Shown: positions 235 to 37,443 of the stretch, piece after piece
Layout: every line of letters starts with the position of its first letter
How positions within the stretch are numbered: position 1 is the first letter of the stretch
NCBI GenBank assembly: GCA_001823155.1
Contig: MHTR01000023.1
Span: 1-40,893 of the forward strand
Direction of reading: 5' to 3'
Source of the DNA: Candidatus Wildermuthbacteria bacterium RIFCSPHIGHO2_01_FULL_48_25
Lineage (GTDB): Bacteria > Patescibacteriota > Minisyncoccia > Minisyncoccales > UBA10102
Length of the DNA stretch: 40,893 nt
The notes under the pieces: generated by a model
Told to the model about the DNA's origin: nothing
Databases searched by the model: none
Seen by the model: the letters and a program-made list of their open reading frames with translations, nothing else
Made by a program: the position numbers and the translations under genes

Positions 235-1220
235 ACTTTGGAACCAATAATATCTTTATGACCGAGAAGGAACTCCTTGGAACTCATGGGTTTCTTGCCC
301 TCAAGCTGTAGCTCCTCAATAACCAAGGCGCCTTCCCCGCATTGAATAGCAAGTTTTTTATCTTCGGTCAAGAACACCGTGCCAGGAGTGAACTTGGTCG
401 GGCCAAGTTTCGGGAAACTTGGCCCGACCAAGTTCTGTACCAAGTTTCGATTGAACACTGCAACTTTGAGTATTTTCAAGTTATGACCCTTAAACACCGT
501 GAACGTTCCTGGCCAGGGAGTAAACGCACGCATCTGGCACTCAATTTCTTCTGCTGGCCTATTCCAATCGATCTTTCCATCTTCTTTTGCAAAGATTTTG
601 GTATATGTTGCCCTTGAATCATCTTGGGGAATGGCTTGTATCTTACCCTCAACCCATTGCGGAATTGTTTTGATGAGCAACTCTGCTCCCAGCTCCGCAA
701 GTTTATCACGCAACTCTGGAAAGGTTGGTTTTGAAAATTGAAAATTGAAAATTGAAAATTCTTGCTGCGCAAGTATTGGCCCGTGGTCCATTTTCTCATC
801 CAAAAGCATAATGGTAACTCCTGTTTCTTTATCTCCATTGAGAATGGCGGTATGAACAGGCGAGGGGCCTCGGTATGTTGGCAACAAAGAAGGATGAACA
901 TTCAAGGTACCTTTCTTTGGAACGTCTAAAACTTCTTTGGGAAGAATCGCCCCGTACGAAGCTACCACAAACAGATCGGGAATCAAACTTGGCCCGGCCA
1001 AGTTTGAATCAAACTTGGCCGGGCCAAGTTTCACGGGTTGAGCTACTTCCAAAGAATACTTTTGTGCGGCAACTTTCACTGGTGAGGGAGTGAGTTTTAG
1101 ACTTCTTCCAGCAGGTTTATCCGGAGTAGTCACTACCAAAACAGGCTTTGTATTCGCCTGCACAAGTTTTTCTAATACAGTCGCTCCGAACTCAGAAGTT
1201 CCAAAGAAAACAATGTTCAT
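231..1220 (-). CDS. fmt: Methionyl-tRNA formyltransferase with two in-frame palindromic inserts
   Basis: The enzyme formylates Met-tRNAfMet with 10-formyl-tetrahydrofolate. The N-terminus MNIVFFGTSEFG is the family start, LNVHPSLLP carries the catalytic Asn and His, and DEKMDHGP carries the catalytic Asp. I use the ATG at 1220 rather than the track start at 1235, because it overlaps the upstream stop as ATGA and matches the family N-terminus. The length of 329 residues is slightly above the usual size. Two insertions explain the excess. Residues about 64-78 and 263-277 are encoded by paired AACTTGG/CCAAGTT palindromes, and residues about 154-163 come from an AATTGAA heptamer run. All inserts keep the frame. 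The gene is coupled to efp downstream. Confidence 0.93.
   Translation of the reverse strand: MNIVFFGTSEFGATVLEKLVQANTKPVLVVTTPDKPAGRSLKLTPSPVKVAAQKYSLEVAQPVKLGPAKFDSNLAGPSLIPDLFVVASYGAILPKEVLDVPKKGTLNVHPSLLPTYRGPSPVHTAILNGDKETGVTIMLLDEKMDHGPILAQQEFSIFNFQFSKPTFPELRDKLAELGAELLIKTIPQWVEGKIQAIPQDDSRATYTKIFAKEDGKIDWNRPAEEIECQMRAFTPWPGTFTVFKGHNLKILKVAVFNRNLVQNLVGPSFPKLGPTKFTPGTVFLTEDKKLAIQCGEGALVIEELQLEGKKPMSSKEFLLGHKDIIGSKV
391..434. repeat. Paired mini-palindromes inside fmt (C-terminal copy)
   Basis: AACTTGGT CGG GCCAAGTT and AACTTGGC CCG ACCAAGTT, 6 bp apart, are exact reverse complements. A third half unit (ACCAAGTTT) follows. They encode the in-frame LVGPSFPKLGPTKF segment. Confidence 0.88.
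732..760. repeat. AATTGAA heptamer microsatellite inside fmt
   Basis: About four tandem 7-bp units (TTGAAAA), encoding FSIFNFQF on the minus strand. Confidence 0.8.
986..1030. repeat. Paired mini-palindromes inside fmt (N-terminal copy)
   Basis: AACTTGGC CCG GCCAAGTT and AACTTGGC CGG GCCAAGTT, 7 bp apart. They encode the in-frame KLGPAKFDSNLAGPSL segment. Confidence 0.88.
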
Positions 1221-16140: not shown

Positions 16141-17484
16141 GTGCAAAAATCAAAATTACAACTTAAAGTTGAAAAATTACGAGGAAGATATCCTCGGTTT
16201 TTTTATCGCGGCTATCGACACGAAGTCAAAGGAAAGAACTTAGAAATTACTTTTTACTTTGAAGTTCCGCCCGACATTCGATTCCACCCCAAGGTTGTAA
16301 TCAAAAACATTCCCCAAACTAAGCGAAGCTTAGTTGGACTTGAGAATCTTGTGTTTCAGCTTGGACTTATGGAAATCCCAAGTTACTGGAAAGCAACCTC
16401 GAGCCCTGAAATTGTTATTGAAGCAGGTTCTTTGAATAAAGAACAAGTAGCGTGGTGGAAAGACCTCATACTGAAGGGAATGGGGGAGTATTTCTTTCAA
16501 AACAAAATTGATTTCACCACGCCAAACTTCCTTAGCATATCTTCGGTTGGAGTTCATCCTTGGCCCGACCAAGAAAATCCTTGGTCGGGCCAAGGAAAAC
16601 CCTCTTCCCAAACCTTAGTGCCAGTTGGGGGCGGGAAAGACGGGGTGGTAACGCTCAAACTGCTTAAAAAGGGAAATATGGATATTACGCCCCTTCTTTT
16701 GAATCCAAAGCCTGAGCAAATGAAAATCCTTAGCCTGGCTAAGGCAGGAGAACCAATTGTGGTAGAGAGAATTATTGACCCAAAGCTTTTGGAGCTCAAC
16801 AAAAAAAGATATCTAAATGGGCACACGCCGTTTTCCGCGTATCTTGCGTTTCTCACGGTTTTGGCCGCGGCGCTCTTTGGCCATAAATACATCGCGCTTT
16901 CTAATGAACGAAGTTCCAATGAAGGAAATGTAAAGTACCTGGGAAAGGTTATCAATCATCAGTACTCAAAAACATTCGAGTTTGAGAAAAAGTTTCGTGA
17001 ATACAATAAGAAATACTTGGCGAAAAATATTGAATACTTCAGCTTTTTGAGACCCTTGTATGAACTGCAAATCGCAAACATATTCTCGCGGTATCCAAAA
17101 TACTTCCCGGTATTCCTGAGTTGCAATGAAGCACGGAAAACAAAGTCGGGCACACAAAGGGGAACAGGGGAGTGGTGTGGAAAATGCCCCAAGTGCCTCT
17201 TTGTATTTCTTGCTCTCTATCCTTTTATGGGAAAAAAACGCACAGTTGCCATATTCAAAAAAGATCTCCTTGAAGATAGAAAACTCAAACCTCTTCTAGA
17301 TGAACTTACAGGCAAAAGAAAATTCAAACCCTTTGAATGTGTAGGCACTATTGAAGAAAGCAAAGCCGCGCTTGCCCTCGCTTTGGGGAAAATACACGAC
17401 CACAAGATTCTGCATACTTGGAATAGCCAACACTTTTTGCCTTCGGTTTTCCAAAAATTACTTAGGCGAGCCATTGACAAATAG
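16141..17484 (+). CDS. murL: MurL-type UDP-MurNAc-L-Ala-L-Glu epimerase
   Basis: MurL converts UDP-MurNAc-L-Ala-L-Glu to the D-Glu form with ATP, replacing glutamate racemase. The 447 residues contain the PP-loop-like VGGGKDGVVTL, NGHTPFSAYLAFL, ALSNERSSNEGN, and a C-terminal Cys cluster (EWCGKCPKCLF). I recognise these as MurL-family features from memory, without alignment. Position between mraY and murD supports the role. The GTG start lies 18 bp after mraY, with a weak GGAAAAG upstream. Residues about 140-151 (PWPDQENPWSGQG) are encoded by a paired palindromic insert. Lack of this gene's activity would have to be made up by a racemase, which is not seen here. Confidence 0.8.
   Translation: MQKSKLQLKVEKLRGRYPRFFYRGYRHEVKGKNLEITFYFEVPPDIRFHPKVVIKNIPQTKRSLVGLENLVFQLGLMEIPSYWKATSSPEIVIEAGSLNKEQVAWWKDLILKGMGEYFFQNKIDFTTPNFLSISSVGVHPWPDQENPWSGQGKPSSQTLVPVGGGKDGVVTLKLLKKGNMDITPLLLNPKPEQMKILSLAKAGEPIVVERIIDPKLLELNKKRYLNGHTPFSAYLAFLTVLAAALFGHKYIALSNERSSNEGNVKYLGKVINHQYSKTFEFEKKFREYNKKYLAKNIEYFSFLRPLYELQIANIFSRYPKYFPVFLSCNEARKTKSGTQRGTGEWCGKCPKCLFVFLALYPFMGKKRTVAIFKKDLLEDRKLKPLLDELTGKRKFKPFECVGTIEESKAALALALGKIHDHKILHTWNSQHFLPSVFQKLLRRAIDK
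16559..16594. repeat. Paired mini-palindromes inside murL
   Basis: CTTGGCCCGACCAAG and CTTGGTCGGGCCAAG are exact reverse complements, 6 bp apart. The outer AA/TT pairs of the family have decayed. Confidence 0.85.
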
Positions 17485-17983: not shown

Positions 17984-18004
17984 TGCTAAAATAGCGAAAT
18001 AATG
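17984..18004 (+). promoter_or_regulatory. Extended -10 promoter of murD, near-leaderless
   Basis: TGC TAAAAT ends 9 nt before the ATG at 18002, with no Shine-Dalgarno sequence. Confidence 0.5.
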
Positions 18005-19264
18005 CGCGTACAAGACCTCAAAGATAAAAAAATCCTTATTCTGGGCTTTGGTAGGGAAGGGAAAGATACCCTTTTGTTTTTGCGAAAGTATTTCTCAAAA
18101 AAGAAGATTGGTATTGCAGACCAAAAGCAGGGGAGCGGGTACCTTAAGAAAATCAAGGATTACGACGTTATTATCAAGAGCCCCGGAGTTCCTAACTGGA
18201 AAATCGCTCCGTTCTTGAAGAAAAAACAAGTTGTAACCTCACAAACCGACATATTCTTCAGTGAATGCCCGGGAACCATTATTGGGGTTACCGGAACAAA
18301 AGGTAAAAGCACTACAGCTTCTATGATATATGGCGTTTTGAGAAGCGGAGGAGTGCGAGCGCATTTGCTGGGGAATATTGGGGAGCCAGTCCTTTCACAC
18401 CTTGCAAAGGCAAAACCAGAGGATGTCTTTGTATACGAACTTTCGAGTTTTCAACTCGAAAATCTAAGGAAAAGCCCGCATATTGCAGTACTCCTGAACG
18501 TATACCCAGAACACCTCGACCATCACCAAAGCCACGCAAAGTACGCGTGGGCAAAAGCACGCATTGCAATGTATCAAACACCAACCGATTTCCTTATCTA
18601 CAACCAAGACAGTAAAGTTGTTTCAACCATCGCAAAACTCTCAAAAGCCCAAAAGCTTCCATTCAAACTTGGCCCGACCAAGTTATCCACAACTTGGTCG
18701 GGCCAAGTTTCACGCCCGGTTTTGGCCTCGGTTAAGCCTGCGAGAATTGTAGGAGAACTTTTTGGAATACCAAAACAGAAAATCGAAAGGGCTATTAAGA
18801 ACTTCAAGCCCTTGGAGCATCGCTTGGAAAAAGTAGGGGAATGGAAGGGGATTACTTTCTATAACGATTCTTTGGCAACAATCCCAGAGGCAACAGTAGC
18901 CGCGCTCGACGCGTTGGGGACAAATGTTTCAACACTCATTGCCGGCGGATATGATAGGGGATTGGATATGAAAAAACTGGGGGAGCGGATAAAGAAAAGT
19001 AACATAAAAACGCTCATTCTTTTCCCAACAACAGGAACAAAAATACTGCAAAGCATAAAGAGGCCCCCTCAATCATTTTTCGCAAAAGATATGAAAGAAG
19101 CGGTGCGGTTGGCGTACTTGCACACACCAAAAAAGAAAATCTGTTTATTAAGCCCTGCTGCTTCCAGTTTCAATATGTTCAAAGATTACAAAGATAGGGG
19201 AGAGCAGTTTAAAAAGTGGGTGGCGTATTATGGAAAGAGGAAAAAAATATCTTTTCAAGCCTGA
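18002..19264 (+). CDS. murD: UDP-N-acetylmuramoylalanine--glutamate ligase
   Basis: This Mur ligase adds glutamate to UDP-MurNAc-L-Ala. The N-terminal domain has LGFGREGKDTL and IKSPGVP, the ATP loop is GVTGTKGKSTTASM, and ELSSFQLE and LNVYPEHLDHH are central-domain signatures. The C-terminal domain shows LEHRLEKVGEWKGITFYNDSLATIPEA. Because MurL is the upstream neighbour, the enzyme is probably the MurD2 type using L-Glu; this is inferred from context, not from residues. Residues about 222-236 (KLGPTKLSTTWSGQVS) are an in-frame palindromic insert near the central/C-terminal domain junction. Its 3' end overlaps ftsW by 35 nt. Confidence 0.92.
   Translation: MRVQDLKDKKILILGFGREGKDTLLFLRKYFSKKKIGIADQKQGSGYLKKIKDYDVIIKSPGVPNWKIAPFLKKKQVVTSQTDIFFSECPGTIIGVTGTKGKSTTASMIYGVLRSGGVRAHLLGNIGEPVLSHLAKAKPEDVFVYELSSFQLENLRKSPHIAVLLNVYPEHLDHHQSHAKYAWAKARIAMYQTPTDFLIYNQDSKVVSTIAKLSKAQKLPFKLGPTKLSTTWSGQVSRPVLASVKPARIVGELFGIPKQKIERAIKNFKPLEHRLEKVGEWKGITFYNDSLATIPEATVAALDALGTNVSTLIAGGYDRGLDMKKLGERIKKSNIKTLILFPTTGTKILQSIKRPPQSFFAKDMKEAVRLAYLHTPKKKICLLSPAASSFNMFKDYKDRGEQFKKWVAYYGKRKKISFQA
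18666..18709. repeat. Paired inverted mini-palindromes inside murD, with central DnaA-box sequence
   Basis: AACTTGGC CCG ACCAAGTT and AACTTGGT CGG GCCAAGTT flank the 6-nt spacer ATCCAC. The two units are exact reverse complements, so the insert can form one 19-bp hairpin or two small ones. The junction reads TTATCCACA (18683-18691). Confidence 0.88.
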
Positions 19265-30278: not shown

Positions 30279-31970
30279 GTGTCGGTATCGCTCGTTCCCG
30301 TTGAATCGTTTTTTAGCCTCGCAAAAGCTGCAGAACTGTGGGATGAAACCACTCTCGGCAACAAGACCTTCCGCGAACAGATTACGGAGCGCGCAGAGCT
30401 GAACAGGCGCCTTCAAAACGTCCTGGACTCTCTGCCCCGGCCGGATATTCCTCTTGAAACCGCAATCGACCAAGGACACCTCACCGAAGAGCAGGCAGCA
30501 GGCCTGTACTCGTCCCTGAGCGGCTTACTGTCTGAACGTGACTACAGACGGCTTGTCTTGTACTTTCCTTTTGAGCTCATGCCAAAAAAGGCATGGCGTG
30601 CTCCAGGGGAAAAACTCAAGCAGGCTGTGGAACAATTCAGGCATGCGTATATGGAGGCATGGAAAAGCCTTCTCTCGGCGCATGACGTGCGCGCAAACTT
30701 TACCGATGGCGACGTGCTTGAGATAGAGTTGCGCGAAAGCGATCTGCCCCGCGTGGTAAAAGCTGCTCACCTCATTCCAGTACTCATTGAAAAAGGCTGG
30801 ATGACGGTTGAGGACGCAGAAAGACTCGCGAAAGAAATCAAAGACCAAACTTTGCGAGACAGCGTTGCTGACGCGCTTTCAGCTGTTCGGGGCACACTCA
30901 AACCAGAGCAGCCCGAAGCAGTAAAAAACACCGCGCCTATCACCGAAAAACGCGCGGCGTGGCTGAAAAAGCGTGAGCGCGAAGAGGCAGTTGATGCCTT
31001 GAGCGAACACGTAAGCAAACTGATTATCCAGGGCAAACGTGCGGACGCAAGCCAGGAAGTGCTGACTGAAGGAATCAGGAAAACGGTTGAGTCAATTGCC
31101 GCAGTCGACCTCGAAAAAGCGCGCGCGCTGTACGCGCAGCACAGGGCAACCCTGCTGAAGCTCTGGGAAAGCGATTCCTCTGACGTAAAGGATGCTCTCG
31201 TAAAGACTTTTCGCCGGTTCTGCCACCTCGGCATTGTCGACGAAAAACAACTTGCAGAACTCAACATCGCTCGCCCGAAGCTGGAAGGACCATTCTCCGA
31301 AAACCTGAACTTCATCACGAACCTGGTTGACATGCATGGGATGGTTTCGTCCATTGAATCAACGCGCGAACTATCCAACCTCATCTACCCCGTGGTTCTC
31401 GTGTATGGTTCCCGTCTGAATGGATACGGCACGCGGAACTCAGACATTGATGTCGCGGTGTTTGTGAGGCCAGGAACACCCTTTGTAATCCGACAAAGGC
31501 TGCAGGAACTCCTCGCGCGAACCTTCAGCCATGTGCTCATCCCAAACGTGGTTGAGTTCTGGCTCGAGGAAAGAAATGGATTGCTTAGGGTTCGGGATTT
31601 TGAAAGCCCTGACGTGTCGCTGGGAGAAAGCTACTGGACACACGCCCTGTTCGGAGCCGCGTGGATAGGGCCAAAGCCCGTCATACGCGAGCTCTGCCTA
31701 CGACTGCTGCTTCCCTACCTCTCTGACACAAGCGGCACGCTCCACAGACAGAACGCGCGAAGGCTGTATCTTGAGAGCCTTGAAAGCGCTTCCCTGCAGT
31801 ACCGGCTCATGCACAACGGGTACGAAAGATTCTTCGCCCGCTACGGCGCGCCGTACCCCGACAGCGTTGACGGCAAGAGCGCCTTCTGGGATTCAGGCTA
31901 CAGGTGGCTCGCGACAAAGCTCTTTTTGAGCAAGGTCTTTCTGCCCAAACTCCCTGCTCCCCTAATATAA
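30279..31970 (+). CDS. Large helical protein with C-terminal Pol-beta-type nucleotidyltransferase domain
   Basis: The 563-residue protein starts at GTG 30279, with AAGGAGG 5 nt upstream. Residues 1 to about 340 are predicted helical, including KKREREEAVDALSEHVSKL. Residues about 375-391 read YGSRLNGYGTRNSDIDV, the GS...DxD signature of the Pol-beta nucleotidyltransferase superfamily. A C-terminal helical region follows, with YLESLESASLQYRLMHNGYERFF. The fold can transfer NMP to nucleic acid, protein or small molecules; nothing shows which. It converges on the vWA operon, with terminators between them. Confidence 0.8.
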   Translation: MSVSLVPVESFFSLAKAAELWDETTLGNKTFREQITERAELNRRLQNVLDSLPRPDIPLETAIDQGHLTEEQAAGLYSSLSGLLSERDYRRLVLYFPFELMPKKAWRAPGEKLKQAVEQFRHAYMEAWKSLLSAHDVRANFTDGDVLEIELRESDLPRVVKAAHLIPVLIEKGWMTVEDAERLAKEIKDQTLRDSVADALSAVRGTLKPEQPEAVKNTAPITEKRAAWLKKREREEAVDALSEHVSKLIIQGKRADASQEVLTEGIRKTVESIAAVDLEKARALYAQHRATLLKLWESDSSDVKDALVKTFRRFCHLGIVDEKQLAELNIARPKLEGPFSENLNFITNLVDMHGMVSSIESTRELSNLIYPVVLVYGSRLNGYGTRNSDIDVAVFVRPGTPFVIRQRLQELLARTFSHVLIPNVVEFWLEERNGLLRVRDFESPDVSLGESYWTHALFGAAWIGPKPVIRELCLRLLLPYLSDTSGTLHRQNARRLYLESLESASLQYRLMHNGYERFFARYGAPYPDSVDGKSAFWDSGYRWLATKLFLSKVFLPKLPAPLI

Positions 31971-32003: not shown

Positions 32004-32041
32004 TAGAAATAAAAGGGGCCAAGCATTCGTATGCTTGGCCC
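32004..32041 (-). terminator. Terminator of the vWA/PurA-like operon
   Basis: Minus strand GGGCCAAGCAT, loop ACGA, ATGCTTGGCCC, then CTTTTATTTC. Confidence 0.92.
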
Positions 32042-32068
32042 TGCCCGTTCCTTTTACGGGCTAAAGAA

Positions 32069-33205
32069 CTAGATGCGCCCCTTCCGATCGGCGCCAATGC
32101 CGCTTGGCATTCTGCCGCCTGCGTAGCTGTTGCTCAGCTGATCCCAGGGGATCTGGGAGCCGAGCATGTACAGGGCACCGAAGTACTGGAGCTCTTCGTT
32201 GCCCGCCGGCTGGTCCTTGACGCCCATGATAGAGAGGACGAAACGCGTCAGGTTGTTCTCGAGCCGTGGGTAGGTGGCTGAAACCGCCACTCCCAGCTGC
32301 TTGAGCATCTGCTCGCGATTCGCGGCGCCGATCATGCCGGGCAATCGAGGGTTCTCCAGAGCTTCCTTGACCTTGACTGCGTCGTAGGCGAGGGCGGCTG
32401 CGATCTGCACGCCGGTTCCCGCGAACACCCTATTGATGGCATCTGCGACTGCGTCAGCATGGTCGCGCAGCACTCCGGTTTCTGGCGGCGATATCATGCC
32501 CGGAGGTATGACGTTCCCGCCACCAGAGCTGGCCATGAGAACGCTCATCATCATGGCCGGATTCGCAGCACCCTGCATCCAGGCCGACTGCCACGAACGC
32601 AGCTGCTCAAAGAAGGCGGCGATCGCGGGCCAGAGATGTTCGTCAACTCGGCCGAGCAACTGCTTTCTCCTGGTCTCGGTCACGTAGTTGCCGTCGAAAC
32701 CCTCGAGGGCCTCGAAGATCTCGGCGTAGTTGCGGCGCGTCATGTCTCGGCGAAGCTTGAAGAACGCGGGGTCAACCTGTTCGTCGTTCTCGTCGGCGAA
32801 TCGTTCCATGGCCTTCACCAGAAGGTTAAGAACATCGAAGAGTCCCACGCGAGACGCAAGCGCCGCGCGAACCGCCGAGATGACACTCGACTGGTCAACC
32901 TTGAGAACACCTCCGGCCTTGAGCGCCTCGAGCCACGAGCTGTCGCTCGGAACTGCCGGAAGCACCGCATCGAACGAAACAGCCACTGCGGCTGTTTCGC
33001 TTGCGGGCCGGGCCGGCGCGAGTGCCGAGACCAACTTCCTTGCCGGCAGCTTTTTCATTCCAGCTGCAACAAGATCGTCCTCGGTCAAGCCGGCCAGATC
33101 TTCCACTGTCGAAGCGCCCAGGTCTGTTTTGATCTTTTCGATCACGTCAACCGGCACGCCTAGTTCCTCCAGCCTGCTCTTTACCTGGTCCGTATCTACT
33201 GCCAC
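32069..33205 (-). CDS. SAM-like plus helical protein, last gene of the vWA operon
   Basis: The 378-residue protein begins at GTG 33205, with GGAAGGAG 7 nt upstream, 15 bp after the PurA-like stop. Residues about 5-62 resemble a sterile-alpha-motif or helix-hairpin domain: SRLEELGVPVDVIEKIKTDLG then LTEDDLVAAGMKKLPARKLV. A short Ala/Pro/Val linker follows. The rest is a large helical region (residues about 95-350) with a Gly/Pro/Met-rich segment, SSGGGNVIPPGMISPPETG. No known domain is recognised in the main part. A SAM-like module suggests self-assembly or docking to an operon partner, which is inference. Confidence 0.75.
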   Translation of the reverse strand: MAVDTDQVKSRLEELGVPVDVIEKIKTDLGASTVEDLAGLTEDDLVAAGMKKLPARKLVSALAPARPASETAAVAVSFDAVLPAVPSDSSWLEALKAGGVLKVDQSSVISAVRAALASRVGLFDVLNLLVKAMERFADENDEQVDPAFFKLRRDMTRRNYAEIFEALEGFDGNYVTETRRKQLLGRVDEHLWPAIAAFFEQLRSWQSAWMQGAANPAMMMSVLMASSGGGNVIPPGMISPPETGVLRDHADAVADAINRVFAGTGVQIAAALAYDAVKVKEALENPRLPGMIGAANREQMLKQLGVAVSATYPRLENNLTRFVLSIMGVKDQPAGNEELQYFGALYMLGSQIPWDQLSNSYAGGRMPSGIGADRKGRI

Positions 33206-33220: not shown

Positions 33221-34606
33221 TTACCTGCACACCTTGTCTTGCTCGGTTGGTCCGAATGAAACCATTCGGACTGGCACTCCCAATGCTCCATTGAGAACGT
33301 TTGCGCAGAGCGAGTATAGCTCGTCGCGCCCGGCCTCAGACGGAATCTCGAGAGTGGTGACTATGGGCTTAGAAGCCAAAACCTGCTTACCCAAACGTTC
33401 CTGGTACTCGAGGTGCTCTTCGTCTTCTCCTCCTTTGACGTTCAGCGCTCCCTTCTCTGTGAAGTACTCGGGATTCTCGGCGTTCGCGTAGCGATCGCAA
33501 AGATCCCACCTTTTATTGGCCATGATCTGGTCGAACCAGGTAACAGCCAACCCGTTGAAGGCCTCTGAACCTCCGCAGGCCTCTATGGCGTAGCGGAGCA
33601 GAACAAGATCAAGGGGGCCAACGCGCACTTTTCCTTGGTACCGGTTCTCTTCTTTGTGGCTGCCAGGCAGCAGGCTTTCGGCCATAGCTGCGTCTGCAGT
33701 TGGAAGAGGCCCGGCACCGTGGCGAATGGCGTAGGCCCGGAACACACCGATGCTCACCGTTTCTTCGCCATATCCAGCCTCTCTGAGCATTGCTTTTGCA
33801 AAGCGCGGCAGCGTTCGGATTGCGCTGGTATGGGGGTGGAAACCGCGGTAGCGATCCGTGAGCACCCCATGCGAGCTTTCGACCACGACCACGCCGTCTC
33901 GAGAAAGGATCTCTCGCTCGAGATACTCGCGGTCAACGATCGTAGCTTGCCGGGATACTTCTTTGAATTGCTCCGCGCAGTAGCTCAGGAAGTCGTCGTC
34001 GTACAGACGGCCGACTTCCAGTTTTACCTGGTGAAGGTCATGAGGAAGAAACTCAGGGATCATGCTTGTGGTGTCGCGCCGCACCTGTTCTCGAATTGCA
34101 ACAAGCCGGTCTCTGATATCGAGCCGCGAAAGGTCGCGAACCCGAATCGTCAAACCTGGGTGCCGCTCCGAATAGCGATACGCCTCACCTACTCCTGTGC
34201 CGATCGTACCGCGGGGGTTCTTGCCCCGCGCCATTTCTTTGAGGCGCGAAGCAATCCCGTGGTACGGCGTGGCACAGAGCACGTCCCTGTCTACCGTGAG
34301 CATGCTGAAGGGATCGTGAATCCCGTGTTCGTACCGAAGCGCGCTGGCTTCGTTCAGCAAACCCACAGGGGAAGCCACCATGCGAGGAGAAAGATACGTC
34401 CTTACTCCTTCGAATGTGCCACAGCCCCATTGGCTGAATGCAAAGCGTTCACCCCTTGAGGTGCAAACGCCGTGGCTTCCCTGAGCTCCTCCGACCTTCA
34501 CAACGGTGTGGGCACGCATCATTGTTGTGATTTTGTGCACCACACCGCCTTTGCCGCCGTCACCCGGACCAAGATCGGTGACGGTGTATACTTTTTTCAC
34601 CGCCAC
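33221..34606 (-). CDS. Divergent adenylosuccinate-synthetase-like enzyme
   Basis: The 461 residues follow the PurA fold. GPGDGGKGGVV matches the P-loop/catalytic-Asp region (Asp16, Lys19), GTIGTGVGEAY the IMP loop and RHGAGPLPT the conserved RxGAGPxPT. Yet key sites differ from PurA. The catalytic His41 (GGHNAGHT) is Ala41 (GGAQGSHG), the EGAQGTLLD loop reads ESSHGVLTD, and the aspartate loop TTGRRRR reads RYQGKVRVG. TKLD, the guanine-binding motif, reads TWFD. It therefore probably joins a different amino acid, nucleotide or both. Start is GTG 34606, with AAGGAG 7 nt upstream. It lies 14 bp after the vWA gene. Confidence 0.85.
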   Translation of the reverse strand: MAVKKVYTVTDLGPGDGGKGGVVHKITTMMRAHTVVKVGGAQGSHGVCTSRGERFAFSQWGCGTFEGVRTYLSPRMVASPVGLLNEASALRYEHGIHDPFSMLTVDRDVLCATPYHGIASRLKEMARGKNPRGTIGTGVGEAYRYSERHPGLTIRVRDLSRLDIRDRLVAIREQVRRDTTSMIPEFLPHDLHQVKLEVGRLYDDDFLSYCAEQFKEVSRQATIVDREYLEREILSRDGVVVVESSHGVLTDRYRGFHPHTSAIRTLPRFAKAMLREAGYGEETVSIGVFRAYAIRHGAGPLPTADAAMAESLLPGSHKEENRYQGKVRVGPLDLVLLRYAIEACGGSEAFNGLAVTWFDQIMANKRWDLCDRYANAENPEYFTEKGALNVKGGEDEEHLEYQERLGKQVLASKPIVTTLEIPSEAGRDELYSLCANVLNGALGVPVRMVSFGPTEQDKVCR

Positions 34607-34620
34607 CTCTCATCTCCTTC

Positions 34621-35742
34621 CTAGAGCCACTTGGGCCCTTCGGGGTCGCCGCTTTCTTCCGAAGGCGCGCCCTCTGAATCGACTTCGCTCGGGTCGATCG
34701 GCCAGACATCGGTCTTTTCCCTGAACAGATCACCCTTTTGCGGCCGCTTGCCAAAGTTGGGCAGAGCTGCCTGGGCGCCTATGGGGATGTTGGCGACAGA
34801 ACGCACGATCCTTTTCGCGTCGTCCCTTTCAACGTTGTTTTCCTGGAGGAACTCCTCAACACTGCTAAGGTCGAGAGTTCCTTCGGTAAGGCCGATGATC
34901 GCAGCCTGCACCTGGGGCAGAAGCTCTGTGCTTGGCAGAACGACCACGCGCTCTGCGCCGAACACTCCTGTCCAGAACCGCGTTGTACTCGGGGCGTCTC
35001 CGACCTGCAGGAAAAAGGCGTGCGCCCGTTTCAGCAGGTCCTGGACAACCTCCATCGTACTCGGCAGGTCACGGGAATCCACCTTGTGGCCGTTCTCGGC
35101 CACTTTTTCGAACACCTCGGGACCGAAAATGCGGCGGAGCTGACTCTCGTCGAGCCAATCGCGGCCCGGCGCGTCCGACACCGTAAAGTCGTACCCCTTG
35201 AGGTCGATCCGAACGATGTACACAGCAGTCAAGAAAGCAGCGCCGAACAATCCATAATGCGGATCTTCGGGCGCATCGCCGCCTGCCCGTTCGGGAACCA
35301 TGAGCGTAAGCTGTTCAACGATTTTTTCGGCCACCATCTCGAACTGCGGCCGGCACAGAACGAACCTGTCTCCTACGTCGCCAAAGATCCCGATCGCGCT
35401 CTGAAGATCGTAGCCAGGCAGCACGCCGCTGCACAGCTCGTAGTCTTTCGGCAGAACGCGAAGGGCAATGTCAACATTGCCACCCATGCTGCCGGTTGTG
35501 TCCACGCGAACTTCTTTTGGTATTGGCGTGCCAACCGTGAGAACCCAGAGGCCGTCTGCTCGCTTTTCGAGTCGCGGCAGCGATCGGCGGATCACGCCGT
35601 AGCCTGCCGGATCGACAAGCGGATTCAACGTGCCAGTTTCACGGGCTACTTGCTCTGCCCGGAACGTCGCGGGGCCACTCTTTGGTACGAATGTTTCAGC
35701 TGCCAGCGAGTAGGCTTCGCGCGAGAACGTTCTCTTTCCCAT
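34621..35742 (-). CDS. vWA-like protein with MIDAS-type motif
   Basis: The 373-residue protein carries VRVDTTGSMGGNVDIAL at about residues 78-94, a DxTGSM metal-ion-dependent adhesion site as in von Willebrand A domains. IGIFGDVGDRF (about 117-127) may be the later metal-binding strand. A middle region reads YGLFGAAFLTAVYIVRIDLKGYDF, and VFGAERVVVLPSTELLPQVQAAIIGLTEG follows. The C-terminus is acidic and Pro-rich. vWA domains with a DxGS site usually bind Mg2+ and a protein partner. AGGAG precedes the ATG, which begins 2 bp after the upstream stop, so it is coupled to the kinase-like gene. Confidence 0.8.
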   Translation of the reverse strand: MGKRTFSREAYSLAAETFVPKSGPATFRAEQVARETGTLNPLVDPAGYGVIRRSLPRLEKRADGLWVLTVGTPIPKEVRVDTTGSMGGNVDIALRVLPKDYELCSGVLPGYDLQSAIGIFGDVGDRFVLCRPQFEMVAEKIVEQLTLMVPERAGGDAPEDPHYGLFGAAFLTAVYIVRIDLKGYDFTVSDAPGRDWLDESQLRRIFGPEVFEKVAENGHKVDSRDLPSTMEVVQDLLKRAHAFFLQVGDAPSTTRFWTGVFGAERVVVLPSTELLPQVQAAIIGLTEGTLDLSSVEEFLQENNVERDDAKRIVRSVANIPIGAQAALPNFGKRPQKGDLFREKTDVWPIDPSEVDSEGAPSEESGDPEGPKWL

Positions 35743-35744
35743 GG

Positions 35745-36572
35745 TCAGTTCTCCTCTTCATTCCTCAACGGTTTAGTGGTGAATGGATGGTACTTGCGCT
35801 CCCAGAGCGCATCGACCAATGCGTAGAACTCCTTGTGTGCTTGTTCTGCGTCTCGCATGCCTCCTCGTGCCAGATGTAGGACGAAATCGGTATACGCCTT
35901 GGTGCTGTTGTCTGGGAATGTGCCTGTTTCCAGTTCACCTCCCAGCACGACAACAACCGCTTGGGCGGCTTTTGAGATCTGCAAACTCTGCGTTTCTCTT
36001 GGGACCGCTTCGGGAAATACCTGCGCTGTTGACCAATCGAAGATCAGCACATAGTGCAGCTTCGGCTCGATCAAGACGTTGTTCCCGGTCGCTTCAATGG
36101 AGAATCCCTCACTGAACGCAAATACGAGCAGTTTGAGAAGTTTCCCCATGATCCACGCGCTGGTGCGCTCGTCAACACGAAGCCTGTCTTTGGCCGTGAT
36201 GTTGCTCAATGGCACCATGCTCCTCACATCCCCTACGTTCCTAAACGCAAGGATGTTGATGTGCCGCGCTCCCTGTTCTTGGGAAACGAAGCTGTCTACA
36301 AGTTCGGGAAACCCGAGCTTGTAGTTAAGCATGGCTTCGGGATCCTTCTTCACACGCGCGTACTCTTCTTCAAGCTCATCAGCATAGCGCTCAAGCTCTT
36401 TTAGAACGTAGGCTGTGCGCTGAAGACCGCCGTTGTTAGCTGTCGCAAGCGCAATCTGCAAAAGGCACTGACTCCCTGCTTCGTCGCGGCAGAGGTAGAG
36501 CCGGTAGGTACCGGTCTCTGCCACCTGCTTGCCGACTTGGTATAGGTGAAAATCGTTCCGTATTTCTATCAC
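35745..36572 (-). CDS. Kinase-fold pseudokinase, first gene of the vWA operon
   Basis: The GTG at 36572 with GGAGGGG 6 nt upstream is the likely start; the track start at 36629 is upstream of the Shine-Dalgarno sequence. The 275-residue protein has YRLYLCRDEAGSQCLLQIA, which aligns with kinase strands 2-3 but has Gln39 where VAIK has Lys. GNNVLIEPKLHYVLIFDWSTA resembles the catalytic loop and DFG region, with Asn and Asp but without the HRD aspartate. It is best described as a protein-kinase-like fold lacking catalysis. The alignment is by eye and moderate. A TAA or TGA free 5' extension is explained by the promoter region. Confidence 0.65.
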   Translation of the reverse strand: MIEIRNDFHLYQVGKQVAETGTYRLYLCRDEAGSQCLLQIALATANNGGLQRTAYVLKELERYADELEEEYARVKKDPEAMLNYKLGFPELVDSFVSQEQGARHINILAFRNVGDVRSMVPLSNITAKDRLRVDERTSAWIMGKLLKLLVFAFSEGFSIEATGNNVLIEPKLHYVLIFDWSTAQVFPEAVPRETQSLQISKAAQAVVVVLGGELETGTFPDNSTKAYTDFVLHLARGGMRDAEQAHKEFYALVDALWERKYHPFTTKPLRNEEEN

Positions 36573-36608
36573 GAAATTCCCCTCCGCTTGACTCTTTTCC
36601 AGATATCT

Positions 36609-36663
36609 ATTGTCAAGGTTCAGCAGCAAAACCCTACCAGTTTTGTATTAAATTGTCAAGGTT
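36609..36663 (-). promoter_or_regulatory. Promoter region of the vWA/PurA-like operon with direct repeat
   Basis: Minus strand TTGACA (36654-36659), 17-nt spacer, TAGGGT (36631-36636). The 12-mer AACCTTGACAAT occurs twice, at 36652-36663 and 36609-36620, 43 bp apart (about four helical turns), one copy forming the -35. A repressor bridging both copies is possible. Confidence 0.6.
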
Positions 36664-36725: not shown

Positions 36726-37406
36726 TCAAAGAAATTGAAAGAACTCTGTTTGCCTTTTCGCAAACTTGTGGAGTGCCGCAGGCCTGTTTGCCCCTCCCCT
36801 CTTTTCTCCTCCAGTAGGCCGTACCAGGTTGAGCGCGAAAAGCTTCTTCCGGAAGTTGCGCTTGTCAAACTTCTTTCGCAGCACAACTTCGTAAACTTCT
36901 TGCAGTTCGCCTAAGGTAAATTGGGGCTTCAAGAATCCTTGGGCTATAGTGGAATACCCAAGCTTTGCCTCAAGACGCTCCAAGCCCTTTTTCACGATTT
37001 CGTTGTGATCGTATGCAAGGTTGAGAAGGCGTTTTGCATCTTTCCAGTATACTTTTCTCGCATTGAGGCTTTTGGAAATTGCTTCTGGAGAAACTAACAC
37101 AAGATATGCCACAGATACCACCCTGCCTCTTGGGTCGCGATTGACCGAACTGAACGTGTACAACTGCTCGATATAGGAAGGGACAACGCCTGTCTTGCCT
37201 TTTAAATGGCGGCGAACCGACGCATCGGCGGTTTCATGGGGGCGTATCAAACCGCCAGGCACGCCGAGCATATGCTTATAAAAAGGTGGTATATGCACAT
37301 CGATCAAAAGAACCTTGAGAATTTTTTCGTGAATAGTAAAAATGACCACGTCGGTGGCTAAGACCGCGAAGTGGAGTTCTTTGGTACTTGGCTTCTTTCG
37401 TTTCAT
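36726..37406 (-). CDS. NrtR-like transcriptional regulator (Nudix plus winged helix)
   Basis: The 226-residue protein starts at ATG 37406. Residues about 10-135 form a Nudix domain (LHFAVLATDVVIFTIHEKILKVLLIDV and PGGLIRPHETADASVRRHLKGKTGV). The Nudix box REUxEExGU reads RHLKGKTGV, so catalytic Glu residues are lost, as in regulators that only bind a ligand. The C-terminal part (FTLGELQEVYEVVLRKKFDKRNFRKKL) is the winged-helix domain of the NrtR family, which senses NAD-related nucleotides. It lies about 96 bp upstream of the vWA operon on the same strand with no clear terminator between, so it may control it. Confidence 0.8.
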   Translation of the reverse strand: MKRKKPSTKELHFAVLATDVVIFTIHEKILKVLLIDVHIPPFYKHMLGVPGGLIRPHETADASVRRHLKGKTGVVPSYIEQLYTFSSVNRDPRGRVVSVAYLVLVSPEAISKSLNARKVYWKDAKRLLNLAYDHNEIVKKGLERLEAKLGYSTIAQGFLKPQFTLGELQEVYEVVLRKKFDKRNFRKKLFALNLVRPTGGEKRGGANRPAALHKFAKRQTEFFQFL

Positions 37407-37414
37407 TATACTTA

Positions 37415-37443
37415 GTGTATAACTATACACGAAGTGCTGTCAA
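37415..37443 (-). promoter_or_regulatory. Promoter and operator-like palindrome of the regulator gene
   Basis: Minus strand TTGACA, 16 nt, TATACA. The perfect palindrome GTGTATA AC TATACAC (37415-37430) covers the -10, fitting autorepression. A start point about 7 nt after the -10 falls within 3 nt of the ATG, so the mRNA is probably leaderless. Confidence 0.7.

Follow-up and report, generated by a model that had tools for sequence, protein, structure and literature searches.

A third clade of PurA-like proteins, encoded beside vWA and kinase-like partners in bacteria and phages

A PurA-like protein encoded in the genome of a Candidatus Wildermuthbacteria bacterium belongs to a third clade of the PF00709 family, separate from both enzymes for which the family is known. 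Two reactions of this family are well known, AMP synthesis by PurA and formation of the Z base of phage DNA by PurZ. The third clade combines coherent changes in the active-site pocket with near-obligate gene partners, and its members come from many phyla of bacteria and from hundreds of phage genomes. Its genes form a cassette that encodes a J-domain or kinase-like protein (probably a pseudokinase), a vWA protein and the PurA-like protein, often together with an NrtR-like Nudix protein. This conserved cassette is stronger evidence for a distinct role than the residue changes. The reading that we prefer, and hold at about even probability, is that the PurA-like protein is a catalytically active ligase that accepts some nucleotide besides IMP's place in the PurA reaction, depends on the cassette and is tied to the NAD/ADP-ribose state.

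Results

The window, by which we mean the whole stretch of 40,893 nucleotides that was analysed, encodes the protein in an open reading frame that fills positions 33221–34606 of the minus strand, starts with GTG at 34606 and specifies 461 amino acids. A first-pass annotation had called a PurA-like enzyme here from the letters alone, and both profile and fold bear out the call. The protein matches PF00709 with E=5.4e-35 and 121 bits, against a curated Pfam cut-off of 27. An AlphaFold2 model computed from an alignment of 38 family members (pLDDT 94.5, pTM 0.93) has the PurA fold: the top Foldseek matches are all PurA structures (TM 0.72–0.75), and PurZ structures rank lower (TM 0.58). By these measures the gene is real and a genuine member of PF00709. 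The features of its neighbourhood are as follows.

30279–31970, plus strand: nucleotidyltransferase-like protein, 563 aa, convergent (weak NTP_transf_2/Polbeta match)
32069–33205, minus strand: SAM/helix-hairpin-helix-like protein, 378 aa (weak SAM_TNK match, E=0.0016)
33221–34606, minus strand: PurA-like protein of the third PF00709 clade (Pfam, alignment to E. coli PurA, tree, AlphaFold2/Foldseek)
34621–35742, minus strand: vWA-like protein, 373 aa, with MIDAS-type DTTGSMG and C-terminal ...KWL (own profile across loci)
35745–36629, minus strand: kinase-like protein, 294 aa, lacking the catalytic Asp of HRD (phmmer to Fludd gp260, E=6e-10)
36726–37430, minus strand: NrtR-like Nudix regulator (Nudix plus winged helix), 234 aa (PF21906 E=1e-18, PF00293 E=2e-6)
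37410–37435, no strand: imperfect palindrome ACTTAGTGTATA-AC-TATACACGAAGT, spanning the start of the Nudix gene

An alignment of 205 sequences, numbered by mature E. coli PurA (L208), was used to map the active-site residues. In the E. coli enzyme, Asp13 and His41 are catalytic, and Asn38, Thr129, Arg143, Thr301 and Arg303 bind substrate. Arg303 touches both the 2'-O of IMP and aspartate (PMC8342488). The window protein keeps the equivalents of Asp13, Lys16 and His41 as D16, K19 and H45. All strings cited in the first-pass annotation (GDGGKG, GGAQGSHG, RYQGKVRVG and TWFD) occur in the translation, and its statement that the P-loop Asp and Lys are kept is correct. Its claim that catalytic His41 is Ala was a register error. 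The E. coli motif GGHNAGH comprises G35-G36-H37-N38-A39-G40-H41, with the catalytic His as its last residue; in the window motif GGAQGSH, His37 is replaced by Ala, Asn38 by Gln, and His41 is retained. The error perhaps came from residue 41 of the window protein, an Ala that falls in the column of E. coli His37. Retention of the catalytic His fits an active enzyme.

The annotation was also right that the loops which contact substrate are altered. The aspartate loop TTGRRRR reads YQGKVR and is one residue shorter, with T300 replaced by Y, T301 by Q and R305 by V, and with R303 deleted. TKLD reads TWFD, in which K331 is replaced by W and D333 is kept. The PurA contacts to IMP and aspartate that the window protein lacks are Asn38 (now Gln), Thr129 (Ile), Arg143 (His), Thr301 (Gln) and Arg303 (deleted). 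Among the residues that had seemed to be missing, alignment restores His41 and leaves Asn38, Arg143 and Arg303 missing.

The same pocket recurs across a large family, with about 140 members spread over large phages and bacteria of many phyla, and a further 190 or so mycobacteriophage records. Relatives occur in 198 phage records, 189 of them from Mycobacterium phages (with a few weaker, ordinary matches); on plasmids of Rhodococcus, Tsukamurella, Variovorax and Agrobacterium; on chromosomes of many further bacteria; and in viral contigs, where an alignment search found them and a single-sequence scan of viral_contigs gave none. Across the 130 family sequences with a vWA or kinase neighbour, Asp13, Lys16, His41, Gln38 and His273 are invariant and Arg303 is absent throughout. 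Asp333 is present in 129 of these sequences, Thr301 has become Gln in 126, and Arg143 is retained in only 7; Gln224 is kept across most of the PurA-like family. Since the loop changes are common to the whole family, they do not reflect chance or sequencing error.

Loss of many substrate contacts, together with a partner kinase that also appears inactive, could mean that the PurA-like protein is catalytically dead and acts as a nucleotide sensor or scaffold. Such a protein would not be expected to retain Asp13, Lys16 and His41 in every member surveyed and Asp333 in all but one, and we consider this account decidedly unlikely.

Two Vibrio phages, VB_VaC_SRILMA (L209) and phiKT1024 (L215), encode members that retain Asn38 (GGANAGH); both have the vWA gene immediately upstream, and the sequence surveyed showed no kinase-like gene. 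At another locus (L240, G187:C15:80002-80592), the reported 24,207-aa open reading frame around a PF00709 fragment is suspect, with N at 1,501 of 3,501 bases.

PurA, PurZ and the window family form three mutually exclusive clades. In an IQ-TREE phylogeny of 60 sequences, bootstrap and SH-aLRT support was 100/99 for the PurA-like family, 99/95 for PurA and 100/99 for PurZ, and a larger quick tree gave the PurA-like family an SH-aLRT of 99. The window protein groups with L126 (57% identity), L127 and Saccharibacteria L082 in a fully supported subclade that shows further changes (ESSHG for EGAQG, and TWFD). A recent PF00709 phylogeny of 767 sequences placed 251 in a PurA clade and 151 in a PurZ group; several hundred sequences thus belong to neither, and the window family should fall among them. 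The third specificity suggested in the first-pass annotation keeps its footing in a clade and an invariant pocket set of its own, and loses the argument drawn from a missing catalytic His.

We also considered whether the family, like PurZ, supplies phage DNA with a modified purine deoxynucleotide, its cellular copies having been acquired from phages. The family is common in mycobacteriophages and large phages, the best PHROG family for the window protein (PHROG 1211, E=3e-45) carries a PurZ-type annotation, and Arg303 is lost in PurZ and the window family alike. However, Asp13 is kept here, whereas all phage PurZ have Ser at this position, a contrast that the annotation had drawn and that our alignment upholds. 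PurZ in the alignment pairs this Ser with retained Asn38 and Val273, and with Thr301 in the four sequences tested. The two groups are separate clades, and chromosomes and plasmids of many bacteria carry the window family's gene with the same partners. In place of vWA and kinase genes, PurZ phages have the nucleotide-pool enzymes DatZ, MazZ and DutZ, which were not named among the genes of the surveyed cassette surroundings. These differences make a PurZ-like role quite improbable.

The phage product name "2-aminooxy adenylosuccinate synthetase" (for example in NC_041993.1, and also in PHROG 1211) seems to be a corrupted PurZ name, and it has been put on members of this non-PurZ family.

Profiles built from genes that adjoin the PurA-like gene were used to detect its partners. 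Of 140 family loci (Gln38/His273), 131 have a vWA or kinase-like gene, and none of 58 canonical purA loci (Asn38/Val273) has either; about half of the canonical loci were surveyed over only 1.5 kb of flank and the rest over up to 7 kb. The vWA gene lies on the same strand as the PurA-like gene in 129 of 129 cases, at a median gap of 14 bp, and the order kinase-like, vWA, PurA-like holds in 83 of 92 loci. Ten family loci were counted as lacking vWA; in seven of them the PurA-like gene lies within about 1 kb of a sequence end, and the vWA gene is truly absent only from L078, L079 and L083. Homology between cassette genes of the window, mycobacteriophage Fludd, Rhodococcus, Tsukamurella and Agrobacterium was detected by phmmer. 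A search with the vWA profile across Patescibacteria was positive in 13 of 380, about ten of them strongly, which indicates that the cassette is rare and patchy there. The GC content of the cassette DNA (58–59%, versus mostly 44–53% in the rest of the window) fits horizontal transfer.

The Patescibacteria version of the cassette has additional genes. In L082, L127 and L238, an orthologue of the SAM/helix-hairpin-helix-like gene immediately follows the PurA-like gene, and homologues of the nucleotidyltransferase-like gene, an accessory to this version, hold the same position in L082 and L127.

Several loci have features of their own. In Saccharibacteria L082 (3037–13833), the cassette seems to be inserted in a ribosomal-protein cluster, with ribosomal-protein-like genes on both sides. 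The cassette of Patescibacterium G222 (L206, 7439–8413) includes a pyruvate-kinase-barrel-like gene (weak match), and a similar-looking gene occurs in Patescibacterium G103, whose cassette has extra vWA-like genes (L235, 9174–11253). On plasmid pAtS4e of Allorhizobium ampelinum S4 (L043, 9374–16948), genes for an AAA ATPase, DUF5682, DUF4132 and VWA proteins follow directly downstream, and look like a separate vWA system.

Could the window protein nevertheless be an ordinary adenylosuccinate synthetase that has evolved fast in a reduced genome and still serves AMP synthesis from IMP? Its catalytic residues are kept, and it is the sole PF00709 gene found in the window genome. A search of this genome for a normal purA and purB found neither, and purB was likewise not found in 46 phage records; with the genome 82.5% complete, the missing purA and purB are weak evidence. 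Against ordinary PurA, relatives in other phyla and phages carry identical changes, other Patescibacteria have an ordinary high-scoring PurA, and G222, of the same order as the window genome, has one ordinary PurA and one family member. PurA equivalog models score the window protein at 77–83 bits and have cut-offs near 400, which it does not reach. Adding the absence of purB from the window genome, and that of the cassette from every canonical purA locus surveyed, we regard an ordinary PurA as very unlikely.

Neither the PurA-like nor the vWA protein had a convincing match to a defence system in PADLOC. The cassette is apparently undescribed in openly licensed literature, in which we found no account of a PurA-vWA-kinase/Nudix system; papers behind subscription could be missed.

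The partners resemble protein-binding modules. The kinase-like profile matches Ser/Thr kinases, and Pfam finds Pkinase in 19 of 33 members and DnaJ in 14 of 33, the J domain being N-terminal. Because these proteins have HGA or similar where the HRD catalytic loop is expected, the kinase-like partner is probably a pseudokinase. The vWA family has no sequence match in Pfam or the PDB; an AlphaFold2 model of the window's vWA-like protein matches integrin-type vWA domains (probability 1.00) and has a disordered tail. Arg-Leu ends 50 of 114 distinct tails and Arg is penultimate in 67, a C-terminal bias not seen in the PurA-like or kinase-like proteins; the window tail ends in KWL. This conserved tail could serve as a docking peptide or could itself be the substrate.

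In Fludd gp261 (L039, 4209–5993), the vWA protein has a long insert at KGY|C that starts with Cys and ends ...SN|C. It looks like an intein, and the other phage relatives have none.

In another reading the target is a macromolecule: the enzyme would act on a protein (the vWA protein's Arg-Leu tail, for instance) or on an RNA, or attach something to it, and the vWA protein and the J-domain pseudokinase would present this target. The near-constant presence of vWA and J-domain/kinase folds would fit, as would the vWA tail, which is disordered in the model and often ends in Arg-Leu. To our knowledge, though, no PF00709 enzyme modifies a macromolecule, and the tail, which in the window departs from Arg-Leu, may be a mere docking peptide. 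We judge a macromolecular target to be unlikely.

An NrtR-like Nudix gene occurs in 46 of 140 family loci, and two thirds have none within the sequence surveyed. The window's Nudix regulator passes the PF00293 and PF21906 cut-offs and scores 124 bits with the NtrR equivalog model, under its cut-off of 400. The palindrome across the start of its gene is a candidate operator and suggestive only, one to three of such quality being expected by chance per window. Palindromes of another type, GGCCAAG...CTTGGCC, lie at window positions 398–427, 981–1033, 16562–16591, 18673–18702 and 32015–32042; some are inside genes (231–1235, 18002–19264), like intragenic palindromic elements.

Genes of NAD and ADP-ribose metabolism accompany the family at some loci. 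Several phage cassettes contain nicotinamide or nicotinate phosphoribosyltransferase genes. Of the 13 phages with such a gene, 8 have it no more than 6.5 kb from the PurA-like gene, against an expectation of 0.77; because the 13 phages are partly related, the probability attached to this proximity is only indicative. In Kaiserbacteria L058, a Patescibacterium, genes for an ADP-ribosylglycohydrolase and a NAPRTase follow the PurA-like gene, and in Vibrio phage phiKT1024 a NADAR gene and a TROVE-annotated gene are nearby. These neighbours, with the NrtR-like Nudix gene often in the cassette, make a link to NAD or ADP-ribose probable. Enrichment of the phosphoribosyltransferase in family phages was considered and rejected: 13 of 46 have it, against the 22–33% of medium and jumbo phages reported to carry NAD-salvage genes (PMC9503650), so only its proximity is notable. 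Neither adenylosuccinate nor PurA is mentioned in the papers examined on jumbo phages, on viral systems of NAD and ADP-ribose, or on NTP-dependent conflict systems.

Discussion

The phosphoryl-transfer residues of the family are invariant and its contacts to nucleotide phosphate, ribose and aspartate are replaced, a combination from which we judge the enzyme to be active on a 6-oxopurine, with an acceptor other than IMP. With the P-loop, Asp13, Lys16, His41 and Asp333 kept, an NTP would phosphorylate O6 of the purine, and an amine would then replace the phosphorylated O6. The acceptor is probably not 5'-IMP, because Asn38, Thr129, Arg143 and Arg303, which serve the 5'-phosphate and 2'-OH of IMP, are replaced family-wide. 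The amine donor may not be aspartate, given that the aspartate loop (Thr301, Arg303, Arg305) is also replaced family-wide. Loss of Arg303 alone is no proof of a new donor, since PurZ without Arg303 still uses aspartate. That no other purA and no purB turned up in the window genome, and no purB in the 46 phage records, is weak evidence against a succinyl product for which a lyase of its own would be required, though phage hosts can supply one.

The protein partners suggest a complex, in which the vWA protein and the J-domain pseudokinase would probably serve as scaffold, adaptor or chaperone, and a state related to NAD or ADP-ribose would probably provide the acceptor or the trigger. A bolder, and rather improbable, proposal is an undescribed conjugation or signalling system in which the PurA-type ligase would make a new aminated purine derivative, or place a purine nucleotide on the vWA Arg-Leu tail; the J-domain pseudokinase would be the adaptor, ADP-ribose would be the trigger, and bacteria and phages alike would use the system in NAD-based conflicts.

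Proteins of the third clade currently go by the plain name "adenylosuccinate synthetase" or by one of PurZ type. Identification of the substrate of the proposed ligase could uncover a purine metabolite or modification that is new, with a possible tie to NAD or ADP-ribose.

Comparison with known systems sets the family apart. Like PurA (PF00709, TIGR00184), it has the fold, the P-loop, Asp13, Lys16, His41 and Asp333, with Gln224 in most members; unlike PurA, it has Gln for Asn38, His for Val273 and Gln for Thr301, lacks Arg303, has mostly lost Arg143, scores far under the equivalog level and forms a separate clade with a vWA/kinase cassette. PurZ/PurZ0, the 2-aminoadenylosuccinate synthetase of Z-genome phages, shares the fold, the loss of Arg303, carriage by phages and PHROG 1211, and differs in Ser13, in keeping Asn38 and Val273 as well as Thr301 (the last in the four sequences tested), in clade and in gene neighbours.

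Other systems share partners. The NrtR/Nudix ADP-ribosylglycohydrolase and vWA systems (PMC9503650) have an NrtR-type Nudix and a vWA protein in common with the cassette, and a glycohydrolase gene also lies beside the L058 cassette; the paper mentions no PurA-like enzyme, and at most family loci a glycohydrolase was not seen. The MoxR-vWA ternary conflict systems (PMC7159879) likewise pair a vWA protein with presumed partners, although the paper makes no mention of PurA and, by gene clustering and Pfam census, a MoxR-type AAA+ gene is not a conserved cassette neighbour.

We found no described function for the "PurA-like" gene of cluster-C mycobacteriophages. Within the stretch seen, the Fludd locus differs from the window in having no adjoining Nudix or SAM-like gene; its gp260–262 belong to the same family of loci, with kinase-like, vWA-like and PurA-like genes as neighbours, and the PurA-like protein is about 34% identical to that of the window.
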